This document shows positions 319-6,307 of a stretch of DNA of 6,307 nucleotides, piece by piece. The position numbers and the translations under genes are program-made. Position 1 is the first letter of the stretch, and every line of letters begins with the position of its first letter. The notes beneath the pieces were generated by a model. The model made no database searches and was not told where the DNA came from. It was given only the letters and a program-made list of their open reading frames with translations. The stretch comes from Fidelibacterota bacterium (lineage in GTDB: Bacteria; Marinisomatota; SORT01), in assembly GCA_022563775.1 (NCBI GenBank), contig JADFMS010000070.1:1-6307 (forward strand). Direction: 5' to 3'.

Positions 319-3012
319 CTACTTCAACAGAACCATCTTCCTCGTCCGGACGAAATCACCTGCTTGGAGCCTATAGAAGTAGATACCGGAGGAAACGTTT
401 GATGCGTCCCATCGTGCCGAGTGCAGACCGGCCGGTTTCTCTTCGTCCACCAATCGTGCCACTTCCCTGCCTCTGAGATCAAAGATAATAAGCGATACTT
501 CCGACCGCGACGGCAAGGCGTAATCTATTGTGGTGACGGGATTGAAAGGATTCGGGAAGTTTTGTTTTAATTCGTATGAAACGATAACTCCTGTTCTTCC
601 CGGAGCGACACCAACTGGCTTTGAAGACATTTTCAAATTCCGGACACCCCAATCTGAAAGCCCGGAGCTCAGTAATGCATTCGTATTCTCGAATCTTATG
701 ACATTAAGGGTGTCAACGAGATGCTTGGGGATGGTCATTGATCCGGTCGTTCCCCAATTGTTTTCACCGGTCGTTTCCAGATATGACAGAAATATGCCGT
801 TAACGAATACGGATACTTCATCACTCTCACGAATATTATAGGCTTCAAAACTCAAAATATCACTGACGCTGAAGGGTATAGCGTCGGACCTGAAACTAAA
901 ACCGATCTCATATTTATAAGAGCTTTCCGATTCCGGGGAATATAAATATTCATCCGTAACAGGGAGTTCCACCAACTCCGGTAACATAGGTTTATCCACC
1001 CATACCGGACTCGACCACGCGAACCTATCGTTTGCGTTTCCGACAGACGTTACCCGCAGGTAGTAAAATGAACTCCGCACATATAATGAATCCCTGTAAG
1101 AGAAATCAAATGATAAATCAGTTCCATCCAAATCGAGATCTGTTATTTCGTAGTTCATACCGTTATATTTTACAATCTCAACGTTTCTGATCGGGGTGTG
1201 CGACAAAACGCTTCCTGTGATCAGCGGGAGCGAATCTGATATGATTTCAGAGCCCATCCAGGCGTCATTAACTTTAAATTCGACTATCGTCCTATGATCC
1301 GTGGTTCCGAATACCCTGCGGGCTTTAATCGCCTCAAACAGCGTTTCTCTGGAAAGGTTATTTGCATATACTCCTGTTAATCCGGTTCCACGAGATGTGA
1401 AATCCAAAGCTGTGGGCGCCCACATCCATCCATATCCCGGATATCCGAAGTGACCGTCGCTTGAGGCTAATATACCAAGTTTATGACCCATTGCAAGCGC
1501 ATCCCTGACATAATGCCCGGCTGATCTTCCGCCAGAAGTTATATGGTCTAATGGATTTAAAAGAAATTCGTTTGCACCGTGTTGCGAATATATTTCAACA
1601 AGACGCTGAAATTCATCACTTCTAAAGGTCCAGTCCACTTTGCGTGAACCCCATGCAATATGATGAGGTATTGTTAAAGCTCTCTGTCCCTCCAAAGCAG
1701 TCCAAAGATCGGATGCTAAGGGATAAGTTTTATTACTGTAAGGCTCGCCGTCATCTCCGGGATAGATAATGTGTTTGTGACCTCTACTCTCGTTTGTCCA
1801 TTCCCACCCTAAAAAAGAAACGAATTTGCCCTCGCTGTTATGGGCTTTGGCGAATTCCCTTATCTTTTCCCAGACTCCGGGTGTCAGATAGTTTACACCA
1901 TAGGTATGATCGTGATCGGTCAGCGCAACGAAATCGAGATTTGCGACATTCTTGGCATAGTTATAAAAATCTTCAATAGTGCCGTTCCCGTCACTGATAT
2001 TCGAGTGATTTTGTATATCACCCCAGTACAGATTATACTCGGGAGGAGACAGCGACACTATATACGGATTACTGAAGTGTTCCGTGCCCGAAAAATCCTT
2101 GGCGAGTAATTGATGTTCCCCTTCACCGGATTGGAAAGTAATGACCACGCGGCCCGAGTCTGTTAAATCAAACTCGACCGTGTTTTGTGTTCCGCAATCC
2201 GAACCTCCGAAACATGTAACCTCAAGAGTACCGGAATATTCGGTATCGATATTGTTGTATTCATCGAATGCAACAAAAACAGCCGATACGGATTCTTCGA
2301 TTGTAAGAAGTGACGGCACTGTTATCTGAAAATGCTTGGCAGAATTATTAACTACCTGTATGGTGGGTATAGGTGTGATAATATTCCACGAATTCGACCC
2401 GGTTTTATCAGCGAGCATGCGGAACTCATAATAAGTTGCGTGAACATTGCTCGTAGCCCTTCCACTCAACGATCCGGAGATGTCTCCGTAGGTGAAAGTA
2501 ATAGTATCGCCAATTGCGGGCGGTTCGCCGCTAAAAGTCGCCACGATATTATAACTAAAAGGTAATCTCGATCTCTTTGCCAATTGAATCCCGGTCGCAG
2601 GATTAGAAGAGCGTACCTTCACAAAACCTCTCTGGTTCGGATAATTTATTTGAGGATAGGTCCAGCTTTTTTGGTTTGGGAGGAAGGCAAAAGGAATTTC
2701 TAACATCAATTTCCCGCCTGAAACAAAAGTACCGCTTTTCGGAATGTATGTGAAGGTCCAAGTTCCCTTTTGAGAAGGATTAGCTTCTGAAGGTGTTACA
2801 AAAACTGTATCAACGCCATCCGATCCGCTGATTTGAATATGTACCCGTGGGATTGAATCCTGAAAATCCATAAGTTGCTCTTCCAAAAGAATATACTCTC
2901 TCGGTGTGAGTTTTTTATCCTGGACAACCGGACCATCAAACGAAATGAAAAATGCGACACTCAAACTGAGTATGAGATAAGTTCCGGTTTTGGATCGATT
3001 CGTCTTATGCAT
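319..3012 (-). CDS. secreted PHP-type (DUF3604/CehA-McbA-like) metallohydrolase with type IX sorting domain
   Basis: An 897-residue exported multidomain protein. Residues 1-25 look like a signal peptide (basic HKTNRSK, then hydrophobic YLILSLSVAFFISF). Residues about 60-220 are beta-rich and resemble the N-terminal part of other large DUF3604 proteins. Residues about 225-322 look like an Ig-like domain (AFDEYNN, EYSGTLEV). The PHP-type domain covers about 325-600. Its likely metal ligands are H336 and D341 (NHSNISDG), H367 (LTDHDH), E404 (GWEWT), H450/H451 (IPHH), H478 (SQHG), and D519 and H521 (SSDGH); a TTDHR motif lies at 570-574. The usual first histidine of the HxH motif is Q334. Residues about 697-800 look like a beta-sandwich. 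Residues 812-897 form a type A sorting/FlgD-like Ig domain (QNFPNPFNP at 817-825), so the protein is probably exported by type IX secretion or anchored at the surface. The substrate is unknown; relatives hydrolyse ester, carbamate or phosphoester bonds. The ATG has only a weak ribosome site (AAAGAT region). The gene is divergent from the his operon. Confidence 0.85.
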   Translation of the reverse strand: MHKTNRSKTGTYLILSLSVAFFISFDGPVVQDKKLTPREYILLEEQLMDFQDSIPRVHIQISGSDGVDTVFVTPSEANPSQKGTWTFTYIPKSGTFVSGGKLMLEIPFAFLPNQKSWTYPQINYPNQRGFVKVRSSNPATGIQLAKRSRLPFSYNIVATFSGEPPAIGDTITFTYGDISGSLSGRATSNVHATYYEFRMLADKTGSNSWNIITPIPTIQVVNNSAKHFQITVPSLLTIEESVSAVFVAFDEYNNIDTEYSGTLEVTCFGGSDCGTQNTVEFDLTDSGRVVITFQSGEGEHQLLAKDFSGTEHFSNPYIVSLSPPEYNLYWGDIQNHSNISDGNGTIEDFYNYAKNVANLDFVALTDHDHTYGVNYLTPGVWEKIREFAKAHNSEGKFVSFLGWEWTNESRGHKHIIYPGDDGEPYSNKTYPLASDLWTALEGQRALTIPHHIAWGSRKVDWTFRSDEFQRLVEIYSQHGANEFLLNPLDHITSGGRSAGHYVRDALAMGHKLGILASSDGHFGYPGYGWMWAPTALDFTSRGTGLTGVYANNLSRETLFEAIKARRVFGTTDHRTIVEFKVNDAWMGSEIISDSLPLITGSVLSHTPIRNVEIVKYNGMNYEITDLDLDGTDLSFDFSYRDSLYVRSSFYYLRVTSVGNANDRFAWSSPVWVDKPMLPELVELPVTDEYLYSPESESSYKYEIGFSFRSDAIPFSVSDILSFEAYNIRESDEVSVFVNGIFLSYLETTGENNWGTTGSMTIPKHLVDTLNVIRFENTNALLSSGLSDWGVRNLKMSSKPVGVAPGRTGVIVSYELKQNFPNPFNPVTTIDYALPSRSEVSLIIFDLRGREVARLVDEEKPAGLHSARWDASNVSSGIYFYRLQAGDFVRTRKMVLLK

Positions 3013-3293: not shown

Positions 3294-3322
3294 TTGACAA
3301 GACAGGCCTGATGAGTTATAAT
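3294..3322 (+). promoter_or_regulatory. sigma-70-type promoter of the his operon
   Basis: TTGACA at 3294-3299 and TATAAT at 3317-3322 are separated by exactly 17 bp (3300-3316). Both hexamers match the housekeeping sigma-70 consensus perfectly. A run of seven A at 3284-3290, just upstream of the -35, could act as an UP-element-like booster. The expected transcription start lies around 3328-3331, giving a 5' leader of only about 22-25 nt before the ATG at 3353. That leaves no room for a leader peptide, T-box or attenuator. Confidence 0.9.
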
Positions 3323-3323
3323 A

Positions 3324-3345
3324 GCACTTTACTAAGGTAAAGTGC
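3324..3345. promoter_or_regulatory. perfect inverted repeat, candidate operator of the TrpR-like regulator
   Basis: GCACTTTAC (3324-3332) and GTAAAGTGC (3337-3345) are perfect reverse complements, nine base pairs each, separated by TAAG. The repeat begins one base after the -10 hexamer and covers the expected transcription start, a standard place for a repressor site. TrpR-superfamily regulators bind palindromes as dimers, and the gene that follows encodes such a protein, so autoregulation is the simplest reading. Because transcription should start inside the left arm, the complete hairpin would not form in the RNA, which favours a DNA operator over an RNA element. Confidence 0.75.
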
Positions 3346-3352
3346 CTGGCAA

Positions 3353-3649
3353 ATGAAAAAATTAAAGAAAAAAGACTTAACCAATTTGTACGAAGCGGTT
3401 GTCAGTCTCAAATCCGTTGAGGAGTGTAAAAATTTCTTGCGGGATCTTTTAACTAAAACCGAGATTGACGAAGCCGCCATGAGATGGAAAGTCGCCCGTT
3501 TGCTTAATGACGGCAAAACTTACATAGAAATTGAAAAAATTACCGGACTCAGCTCCACTACGGTTGCAAGAGTTCACAAATGGCTTAAAAAAGGCAAGGG
3601 TGGATATTCAAAAATGCTTAGAAATATTTCACAAACCAACGATAAATAA
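3353..3649 (+). CDS. hisR: TrpR-superfamily (YerC/YecD-type) transcriptional regulator, candidate histidine repressor
   Basis: A 98-residue all-helical DNA-binding protein. It follows the YerC/YecD pattern of the Trp repressor superfamily: DLTNLYEAVVSLKSVEECKNF at the N-terminus, an LLTKTEIDEAAMRWKVARLL central segment (about 32-51), then a helix-turn-helix with TYIEIEKITG (about 56-65) and recognition helix SSTTVARVHKWLKKG (about 67-81), ending GGYSKML. The length is usual for the family, which works as a dimer. It is the first gene of the his operon, 11 nt before hisG, and its promoter carries a perfect palindrome at the transcription start. TrpR-family regulators linked to his genes have been called HisR in Gram-positive bacteria, so I infer a histidine-responsive autorepressor; the effector is not shown by the sequence. 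The ATG fits the family N-terminus, but no good Shine-Dalgarno sequence precedes it. The gene symbol is a functional proposal. Confidence 0.85.
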   Translation: MKKLKKKDLTNLYEAVVSLKSVEECKNFLRDLLTKTEIDEAAMRWKVARLLNDGKTYIEIEKITGLSSTTVARVHKWLKKGKGGYSKMLRNISQTNDK

Positions 3650-3660
3650 GAGACTATAAT

Positions 3661-4545
3661 TTGGAAAATTTAAACAAAGATAATGGAAGGTTGAAATTAG
3701 CCTTTCAAAAATCAGGCAGGATAACCAAGGGATCGATTGACTTACTAAGCGGTTGCGGATTCAGTTTTTCATACCGGGAGGGTGTGCTATATTCTCCCGT
3801 AAGCAATTTTCCCCTCGATATTTTAGCGATCAGAGATGACGATATTCCCCGGTATGTTCAGGAAGGGATCTGTGATCTTGGAATAGTGGGTTCCAACATC
3901 GTTGAAGAGGAAAATTCAAATGTAGAAATCCTGTCCCGTCTGGGTTTCGGCAGATGCCGCATTTCGATTTGCGTACCAAAAATTGCCCAGATAGATAAAT
4001 TGGAAGAGCTTGAAGGTAAAACCATCGCTACATCTTACCCGAAAATCCTGGCAAAATTCTTAGCTGAAACAGGTCTCAACTCTAAGATCACGAAAATTAG
4101 CGGCTCTACAGAAATTACTCCGTCCATTGGAGTAGCGGATGCTATCTGCGAGATTATTTCCTCGGGCAGCACGTTGAAAATACACGGACTTATCGAGATG
4201 GTAGAATTAGTTAAGTCAGAAGCGGTATTGATAGCGCACAAATCCACTCTTGCCGATAAAAACCGGGAACGGCTCATCGGCAACCTTTTGTCTCGTGTCC
4301 AAAGTAGGGTGCTTGCTCAGGGTAAAAAATATGTTGCCATGAATGCCGGCATTGAAAGTATCGAAAAGATTAAAACCTTGATACCGGGCATTAAAAGTCC
4401 CACTATTATTCCCCTTCTCGAAGATGACATGGTAGCACTGCATTCTGTGGTAGATGAACAGGAATTTTGGAATGTACTCGATGATTTGAAGAGTGCCGGT
4501 GCAACCGGAATAGTTGTGTCTTCAATCGATAACATCATCCTGTAA
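3661..4545 (+). CDS. hisG: ATP phosphoribosyltransferase, long form
   Basis: Catalyses the first step of histidine synthesis: ATP plus phosphoribosyl pyrophosphate gives phosphoribosyl-ATP, in the cytoplasm. The 294 residues match the long HisG form (E. coli about 299). Visible signatures are LAFQKSGR near the start, IRDDDIPRYV (around 57-66), CDLGIVGSNIVEEE, GKTIATSYP, and the PRPP-binding segment DAICEIISSGSTLK at 160-173. Residues from about 222 onward (KKYVAMNA, PTIIPL, FWNVLDDLKSAGATGIVV) form the C-terminal ACT-like domain that gives feedback inhibition by histidine, so no HisZ partner is needed. The start is TTG at 3661, the first possible start after an upstream in-frame stop, with a weak AAGAGA seven bases before it. 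A second TTG at 3691 would also fit the family but has its purine-rich site directly abutting. The gene ends 2 nt before hisD, suggesting coupled translation. Confidence 0.96.
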   Translation: MENLNKDNGRLKLAFQKSGRITKGSIDLLSGCGFSFSYREGVLYSPVSNFPLDILAIRDDDIPRYVQEGICDLGIVGSNIVEEENSNVEILSRLGFGRCRISICVPKIAQIDKLEELEGKTIATSYPKILAKFLAETGLNSKITKISGSTEITPSIGVADAICEIISSGSTLKIHGLIEMVELVKSEAVLIAHKSTLADKNRERLIGNLLSRVQSRVLAQGKKYVAMNAGIESIEKIKTLIPGIKSPTIIPLLEDDMVALHSVVDEQEFWNVLDDLKSAGATGIVVSSIDNIIL

Positions 4546-4547
4546 GC

Positions 4548-5840
4548 ATGAATATACGCCTTCTTAAAAGTTTAAATCAGCACGAACTGAGTGCGCTGTT
4601 AAACAGAAATGTCGATCCCGAATCCTCTTTGACATCTACCGTCGAAGGAATCTGTCTGGATGTGAAAAAAAACGGGGACAGTGCCGTGCGTTCCTACACA
4701 AAGAAATTCGATAAGATCGATCTTGATCATTTTTCGGTGACCGGGGAAGAAATTGATAACGCCTACGACAGCATCGATAAGAATCTCGATAGTTCGATGC
4801 GTACGGCACGCGATAATATTCTAAAATTTCACGAAGCGCAGCAATCGCAAATCAGAGAAGTCATAACCGATGTCGGTATCTCGTGCAGCCGCGAGCCAAG
4901 GGCTATAGAAAACATAGGGCTTTATATACCGGGCGGAACAGCTCCTCTTGTTTCAACAGTTTTGATGCTCGGTGTTCCCGCACAGTTGGCGGGATGTGAA
5001 CGGATTGCGATGACAAGCCCAACTGGCAGAAATAGAGAAATAAATCCCTCATTGCTTGCGGCAGCAAAATTGGTCGGGATACAAGAAATTTACAAAATTG
5101 GCGGAGCGCAGGCTGTAGCGGCATTGGCGTATGGCACCAACTCCATTCAAAAGGTAGATAAGATTTTCGGACCGGGAAATCAATTTGTCACCGCGGCTAA
5201 AAAGTTTGTCTCGAACGACCCGGACGGCGCCGCAATAGATATGCCGGCCGGACCCACAGAACTTTTGATTATCGCCGATGATCAAGCCGATCCTCTGTTC
5301 GTTGCGCTTGATCTCGCCGCTCAAGCCGAGCATGGAACTAATTCTAACGTTCTATTATTAACCGACAGCCCGGAATTTGCAAATTCTGTTCTCGATGCAA
5401 TTTCAAAACTATCTTTACCCGATGACCGTAAGGAGATTATAAATAATTGCTTAAATAAATCCGTAATTCTCAAAGTCGAAAATATTGAAGAAGCAATTCG
5501 CTTTTCGAACGAGTACGCGCCTGAGCACCTTTCCCTTCAAATAAAGAAGGCTGATTTATTTAAGGAAAAGATTAAAAACGCCGGAACGGTTTTTCTCGGC
5601 AGCAATACGCCGCCTGCCGCCGGTGATTATGCTACCGGTGCGAATCACATACTTCCTACAAACGGTAATGCAAAATCTTACAGCGGATTAGCTTTGAGCG
5701 ATTTTCAAAAATTTATCACTTTTCAAAAAACGGATGATACCGGTTTAGAAAATATAGCGTCTGCTGTAAAAGGATTGGCGGAAGCTGAGGGACTTTATAT
5801 GCATTATGAATCTGTGCAGGCAAGGCTTAACAATGCTTGA
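4548..5840 (+). CDS. hisD: histidinol dehydrogenase
   Basis: Zinc enzyme that oxidises L-histidinol to L-histidine in two NAD-dependent steps, the end of the pathway. The 430 residues are full length (E. coli 434). Key residues fall at the same numbers as in the E. coli enzyme: zinc ligands Q259 and H262 (AQAEHG), D360 (AAGDYATG) and H419 (LYMHYE), and the catalytic pair E326-H327 (EYAPEHL). Other family segments are NIGLYIPGG (122-130), KIGGAQAVAALAYGT and KIFGPGNQFVTAAKK (205 onward). No essential residue is missing. The ATG is 2 nt after the hisG stop with no clear Shine-Dalgarno sequence, so translation is probably coupled to hisG. The 3' end overlaps hisC by 8 nt. Confidence 0.98.
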   Translation: MNIRLLKSLNQHELSALLNRNVDPESSLTSTVEGICLDVKKNGDSAVRSYTKKFDKIDLDHFSVTGEEIDNAYDSIDKNLDSSMRTARDNILKFHEAQQSQIREVITDVGISCSREPRAIENIGLYIPGGTAPLVSTVLMLGVPAQLAGCERIAMTSPTGRNREINPSLLAAAKLVGIQEIYKIGGAQAVAALAYGTNSIQKVDKIFGPGNQFVTAAKKFVSNDPDGAAIDMPAGPTELLIIADDQADPLFVALDLAAQAEHGTNSNVLLLTDSPEFANSVLDAISKLSLPDDRKEIINNCLNKSVILKVENIEEAIRFSNEYAPEHLSLQIKKADLFKEKIKNAGTVFLGSNTPPAAGDYATGANHILPTNGNAKSYSGLALSDFQKFITFQKTDDTGLENIASAVKGLAEAEGLYMHYESVQARLNNA

Positions 5841-6307
5841 ACTAAAGAGTTTTATCCGTCCGGAACTCCTTAATTTCAAGCCTTATACCAGTGCTCGCCA
5901 TCTTGCTGGGAACGGCGGAATACTGCTGGACGCTAACGAGAACCCGTTCGATAAAATTATTGATATTAGTGATATAATCGCAAACAGATATCCTGATCCA
6001 AGTTATAAAACCCTGAGAGATGCTTTTTCTGATTATATAGAACTGCCAGGGGAAAACATATTTGCCGGAGCAGGTTCGGACGAAATTATTGATCTTTTAT
6101 TAAGACTTTTCTGCGTTCCGAATCAGGATGGAGTAGTGATCATTGAGCCAACCTACGGCATGTACAAAGTATCTTCAGAATTGAATGGAGTCATAGTAAG
6201 ATCCTGCTTGCTCGGTGATGACTTTGATATTGATATTTCAAAACTACATGAAGCGGTAAGCGAAGAGACAAAACTCGTTTTTTGTTGTTCACCCAACAAT
6301 CCGACAG
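5833..6307 (+). CDS. hisC: histidinol-phosphate aminotransferase, N-terminal part
   Basis: The first 158 codons of a gene cut by the right edge. The product is a pyridoxal-phosphate enzyme (aminotransferase class I/II fold) that converts imidazole acetol phosphate plus glutamate to histidinol phosphate. Family signatures visible are LLDANENPFD, RYPDPSYKTLRDAF, AGAGSDEIIDLLLRLF (cofactor phosphate region), EPTYGMYKVSSEL and, at the edge, FCCSPNNPT, which includes the conserved asparagine and proline next to the cofactor ring. The lysine that binds PLP lies beyond the window. The ATG at 5833-5835 overlaps the last 8 nt of hisD (shifted frame), with AAGG seven bases upstream inside hisD. The operon order so far is regulator-hisG-hisD-hisC; further his genes are expected downstream but cannot be seen. 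Confidence 0.95.
   Translation, partial: MLELKSFIRPELLNFKPYTSARHLAGNGGILLDANENPFDKIIDISDIIANRYPDPSYKTLRDAFSDYIELPGENIFAGAGSDEIIDLLLRLFCVPNQDGVVIIEPTYGMYKVSSELNGVIVRSCLLGDDFDIDISKLHEAVSEETKLVFCCSPNNPT

Follow-up and report, generated by a model that had tools for sequence, protein, structure and literature searches.

A predicted HisR autorepression circuit before a Marinimicrobia his operon, and hisR as a possible attenuator leader in a subgroup of Patescibacteria

The closest described systems are those of the YerC-type proteins of the TrpR family, which Ashniev et al. (2022, PMC9413887) named HisR. Their article gives an operator consensus, cacTTTAnnnnnnTAAAgtg, that covers most lineages of Firmicutes, Actinobacteria and Synergistetes. 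It also reports that autoregulation by HisR is frequent and that hisR heads the his operon in several lineages. Histidine-dependent DNA binding was demonstrated there for HisR of Ruminococcus gnavus, with L-histidine promoting binding, and some paralogues of the family were linked to tyrosine or tyramine genes. The groups that the article lists as bearing HisR are Firmicutes, Actinobacteria, Proteobacteria, Synergistetes, Dictyoglomi, Elusimicrobia and one species of Mollicutes. Its main text holds no occurrence of Bacteroidetes, Chlorobi, Marinimicrobia, Ignavibacter, Fibrobacter, Patescibacteria or "candidate phyla", and we found no report of HisR in FCB bacteria among other open-licence papers.

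We analysed positions 1 to 6,307 of contig JADFMS010000070.1 (assembly GCA_022563775.1, Fidelibacterota bacterium), a stretch of 6,307 nucleotides hereafter called the window. A sequence-only reading of it had proposed a self-controlled his operon. It noted that his regulation by a TrpR-family protein had been described for Gram-positive bacteria and knew of no description from the FCB group. The HisR-operator system is already published, and Marinimicrobia is a new phylum for HisR. Judged from its sequence, the window very probably holds an autoregulated HisR circuit with a perfect palindrome as its predicted operator.

Promoter, palindrome and genes in the window

The features of the locus are as follows; L007, L008 and L001 are related loci described in the next section.

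3294-3299, + strand: -35 hexamer TTGACA, part of a 12-of-12 promoter match, identical in L007, L008 and L001
3317-3322, + strand: -10 hexamer TATAAT, also TATAAT in L007 and L008, TATTAT in L001
3324-3345, no strand assigned: predicted HisR operator, a perfect 9-4-9 palindrome in which the published 20-bp motif occupies 3325-3344
3353-3649, + strand: hisR, TrpR-superfamily repressor (YerC/YecD family), 98 aa, assigned by TIGR02531, PF01371 and fold match
3661-4545, + strand: hisG, ATP phosphoribosyltransferase, TTG start
4548-5840, + strand: hisD, histidinol dehydrogenase
5833-6307, + strand: hisC, histidinol-phosphate aminotransferase, truncated by the end of the window

The two hexamers lie 17 bases apart and form the sole 12-of-12 match among 18 promoter-like sites in the window, counted at a 9-of-12 threshold at which shuffled sequence averages 12.9 sites. 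A single A (3323) separates the -10 hexamer from the left arm GCACTTTAC (3324-3332), which is followed by the spacer TAAG (3333-3336), the right arm GTAAAGTGC (3337-3345) and the 7-bp CTGGCAA before the hisR ATG at 3353. The sequence-only reading had placed a TTGACA-17-TATAAT promoter at 3294-3322 and, one base past it, a 9+9 bp inverted repeat around TAAG; both were exact to the letter. It had also inferred an operator motif from the repeat. The palindrome as operator stands as the best reading, but the motif needed no inference, being the published HisR consensus: at 3325-3344 the window reads CACTTTACTAAGGTAAAGTG, which agrees with that published sequence at 14 of 14 fixed bases with 0 mismatches.

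Chance rates were estimated from order-1 random sequence (2 Mb) with the window as its model. Such sequence yields about one match per Mb to the published consensus of 20 bp at no more than one mismatch, and about 6 perfect 9-4-9 palindromes per Mb. Within the window, the palindrome pattern at up to three mismatches has one occurrence, compared with none in 200 shuffles.

Family matches confirmed the proposed gene order, in which the promoter leads directly into a TrpR-superfamily gene and hisGDC. The four genes are closely packed or overlapping. We chose an internal ATG at 5833 as the start of hisC; the mechanical open reading frame opens at 5806. Divergent from hisR, the minus strand at 319-3012 encodes a protein of 897 aa with a T9SS sorting tail and a CehA/McbA-like metallohydrolase region that scores below that model's cut-off.

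The window HisR exceeds the curated cut-off of TIGR02531 (YerC/YecD) with 74.9 bits against 42.2, scores 20.6 bits against TIGR01321 (TrpR), under the cut-off of 67.25, and is a member of PF01371. An AlphaFold model built from a 26-row alignment had a mean pLDDT of 93 and served solely to confirm the fold. The modelled fold is closest to 3frw, 3g1c and 3kor (TMq 0.79-0.86); chains of E. coli TrpR gave TMq 0.60-0.72, with one chain at 0.52, and Foldseek E values of at least 0.1.

In the proposed circuit, the consensus sigma-70 promoter would drive hisR-hisGDC and whatever follows. A HisR dimer loaded with histidine, or with a near relative of histidine, would bind the 20-bp palindrome just past the -10 hexamer, over the start site, and shut off its own gene together with the biosynthetic genes. 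When histidine drops, the apo-repressor would leave and the strong promoter would fire. Dimer binding, repression, the start site, expected within the left arm of the palindrome, and histidine as the ligand are what we infer from the arrangement. The co-repressor in particular is carried over from the published, distant orthologue in Firmicutes, for which histidine-dependent binding is described. We favour the HisR-operator reading because the palindrome matches the consensus, the protein belongs to the family, site and spacing are conserved, and HisR and site occur together.

Conservation of operator and regulator in related genomes

The closest named relatives place the window in Candidatus Marinimicrobia: the nearest named protein to the window HisR belongs to a bacterium of that name (P0002; 97% identity over 97% of the query), and the HisR of L001 (about 70-71% identity) comes from a Candidatus Neomarinimicrobiota MAG. 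A search of that MAG's phylum with the window HisR found matches in 37 of 245 genomes, 3 of them close and 34 distant (23-39% identity). The close proteins are 96, 81 and 70% identical (L007, L008 and L001/L004), and all three precede hisG and hisD. The operator stands before hisR-hisGD in all three of these genomes, with 0, 0 and 1 mismatches. Across the window, L007, L008 and L001, the 17-bp promoter spacing is unchanged and the operator begins at +9 from the first -10 base in four of four loci. Promoter spacers and flanks drift, while the hexamers are constant except for one base in L001. This is the pattern that the sequence-only reading had put forward as support, a kept palindrome with drifting flanks before orthologous operons, and it supports the self-controlled operon. 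Within the phylum, independent support comes from L008 and L001 only, since L007 hardly differs from the window.

As a control, we examined 30 hisG loci from the 65 of 245 phylum genomes that have hisG. In the three loci with a close HisR, the site lies no more than 340 bases from hisG. Among the 27 loci without a close HisR, 4 of which have fewer than 500 bases upstream, there were no sites at two or fewer mismatches. Three of the 27 (L093, L100 and L114) have a match at three mismatches, where about one is expected, and 10 of the 27 control genomes contain a distant TrpR-like match. The his repressor and its site thus go together: the site occurs with the close regulator and was not found in the examined hisG loci that are without it. 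This bears on whether the palindrome could be another regulator's site or a product of chance, as the rate of perfect palindromes in random sequence might allow. Set against the HisR consensus match, the conservation of the site and its link to the presence of HisR, we regard that explanation as extremely improbable.

We searched ten genomes for the perfect core ACTTTA-N6-TAAAGT. It occurs once each in G001, G198 and G199, just before hisR, and once each in G002 and G325, just after hisR; it is absent from the other five. Genes matching TIGR02531 (the YerC family) are single-copy in each of G001, G198 and G199. Besides the perfect core, these three genomes contain 10, 6 and 8 cores with one mismatch, compared with 25, 34 and 12 matches to a reversed control pattern. 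One-mismatch cores are rarer than the control, and we therefore claim no further targets beyond the his operon.

A different question is which ligand HisR senses. HisR could bind this operator yet respond to another amino acid, to a pathway intermediate or to no ligand. Of the six acidic residues of 3g1c at alignment positions 22-42, four are acidic in the window HisR, one is Asn and one is Arg. The recognition helix reads S-S-T-T-V-A-R in place of S-T-A-T-I-S-R in 3g1c. The DNA-contact residues Ala80, Thr81 and Arg84 (TrpR numbering) are reported in PMC9413887 as conserved in most HisR; by our mapping through 3g1c, two of the three are kept and Ala80 is replaced by Thr. The two altered acidic residues and the departing helix, together with the tyrosine/tyramine-linked paralogues described in that article, favour another ligand. 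Against this, hisR heads hisGDC, the sole perfect core in G001, G198 and G199 precedes the operon, and the published R. gnavus protein responded to L-histidine. On balance, a ligand other than histidine seems improbable, and we retain the histidine-responsive circuit.

Three of the 34 distant matches (L009, L013 and L031) were scored against the family models. None reaches the TIGR02531 cut-off (L009 comes to 41.4 against 42.2), and all three score better with the TrpR model, yet under its cut-off. In L013 and L031, both from the window's phylum, the TrpR-like gene immediately precedes a TrpB-type gene (of PRK12391 type in L013, TIGR00263 in L031), which is possibly a trp counterpart of the HisR circuit.

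The operator also extends to the phylum of L002, which by its title we take to be an Ignavibacteria MAG, presumably Bacteroidota in GTDB. Among 395 genomes drawn from that phylum, HisR matches were found in 6, and sites at three or fewer mismatches adjoin hisR in 4 of these 6. In L002 (2 mismatches) and L037 (1 mismatch) the site lies between hisR and hisG. L036 and L038 each have two weak sites of 3 mismatches, one before hisR and one between hisR and hisG, near the hisG start. Sites with 3 mismatches are weak alone, arising about 54 times per Mb in the random sequence, and it is their position that supports them. The pre-hisR operator of L036 and L038 starts at -10 position +3 and includes part of the hexamer TATACT. 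L039 and L040, the most distant matches in this phylum, have no site.

The locus of L002 itself (5001-5383) has hisR, then the site, then a hisG-like start, recognised by reading, that runs for 17 codons before a stop. A tblastn search of the locus gave no match to hisG, hisD or hisC. It is either a broken operon or an assembly fault.

In the protein tree, eight rows (the window, L007, L008, L001, L002 and L036-L038) cluster with support 91/95, and L039 and L040 are placed elsewhere. The window is thus placed among sequences from its own phylum and four from that of L002, and the three Firmicutes rows lie outside this cluster. Since 15 of the 40 inner branches are open and long-branch warnings attach to the TrpR-like rows and to L040, we do not argue for transfer or its direction.

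These loci also bear on a role for the palindrome in RNA. A transcript containing the whole palindrome could form a 5'-terminal hairpin that controls mRNA stability or translation, with 7 nt between the palindrome and the ATG. The expected start, however, would fall inside the left arm. The motif moreover overlaps the -10 hexamer from +3 in nine related loci (L036, L038, L058, L060, L061, L064, L069, L071 and L072), and therefore the left arm would not be transcribed from that promoter. Rfam gave no match in the window at gathering score, where a his leader attenuator or T-box was looked for. We consider an RNA hairpin highly unlikely as the function of the palindrome; a DNA operator for HisR remains our preferred reading.

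Tandem sites and a possible attenuator in Patescibacteria

In L003, a locus of Candidatus Taylorbacteria, sites lie at 1748-1767 and 2097-2116, one before hisR and the other before a LOG-like gene identified by reading its translation; the 7-kb locus has no hisG, hisD or hisC match. A search from its HisR found relatives in 143 of 379 Patescibacteria genomes, with up to 7 per genome. Two features recur among the best 30 loci. In 11 of them, two sites at three or fewer mismatches lie exactly 18 bp apart near the hisR start. In 21, HisR has at least two His residues beyond the GY that is conserved in its C-terminal part.

Tandem-site loci: L059, L060, L062, L063, L064, L066, L068, L071, L072, L083, L086
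His-tail loci: L059-L073, L075, L077, L078, L081, L086, L087

A terminator-like hairpin lies near or after the hisR stop in 18 of the 21 His-tail loci, and in 16 of these 18 the preceding stretch pairs with the 5' arm of the hairpin better than 95% of shuffles. Of the 9 loci among the best 30 that have no His tail, one has a hairpin. The next 20 loci served as a test set for this pattern. Only one has a His tail, and its hairpin lies inside the gene without pairing; terminator-like hairpins occur in 7 of the 19 without a tail, 1 of the 7 pairing well. The pattern therefore belongs to a subgroup and not to the whole family, and hairpins alone are common.

We then compared pairing within and between loci. 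We took a fixed 36-base segment from the end of hisR in each of the 18 loci; its pairing with the terminator arm of its own locus averages -14.3 kcal/mol, compared with -10.6 kcal/mol for partners from other loci. No permutation out of 20,000 reached the own-arm mean, but the 18 loci are related. By rank, the arm of the same locus came first in only 4 of 18 cases and the segment of the same locus in 7 of 18; pairing with the fixed segment is poor in L060, L061 and L087.

The genes downstream vary. hisG directly follows hisR in L065 and L068 (by Pfam) and in L069 (by reading the translation). The downstream gene of L063 and L064 belongs to the SLOG family and, in L063, is itself followed by a HisG-like gene; that of L070 encodes a GNAT-type protein. 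Downstream genes of L060, L062, L066 and L072 gave no Pfam match. When 19 of the best 30 loci, along with L036, were scanned with Rfam, the credible matches were tRNAs and none of these elements matched a family. We found nothing relevant in open-licence papers on a repressor gene that doubles as an attenuator leader.

These observations suggest that in the Patescibacteria subgroup hisR may have a second role as the leader-peptide gene of a histidine attenuator before hisG or other genes. Taken as a whole, we did not find this set of HisR loci from Marinimicrobia, L002's phylum and Patescibacteria, the window included, in print. We think it likely that hisR of the subgroup combines two controls: it encodes the repressor, which often has two operators spaced 18 bp apart, and its last codons make a His-rich leader peptide, the bases after them forming the antiterminator of an attenuator before hisG or other genes. 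The window has the repressor half only: its hisR does not end in a run rich in His, and no terminator-like site turned up between this gene and hisG. A repressor gene with an attenuator-leader 3' end, if true, would be a compact joining of histidine sensing and His-tRNA sensing.

Comparison with known systems

What is known of Marinimicrobia as a phylum comes mostly from metagenome assemblies. The present locus carries the published HisR regulon model into this phylum and provides an exact operator for annotation. E. coli TrpR, the repressor of an amino-acid operon, resembles the window HisR in fold and size. The window protein differs in missing the TIGR01321 cut-off, and the TrpR operator consensus, as published, is different from its site. 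The tandem sites of Patescibacteria recall the tandem binding of TrpR named in the title of 1trr. For HisR of alpha- and gamma-Proteobacteria, PMC9413887 gives the motif TGTAnTArnnnnyTnTTACA, which is nearer to that of TrpR, whereas the window motif is of the Firmicutes type. The likeness to the HisR that the article describes from Firmicutes, Actinobacteria and Synergistetes comprises a TrpR-family protein, the 20-bp consensus, a his operon as target and common autoregulation; unlike 3g1c, the window protein carries SSTTVAR and not STATISR in its recognition helix.
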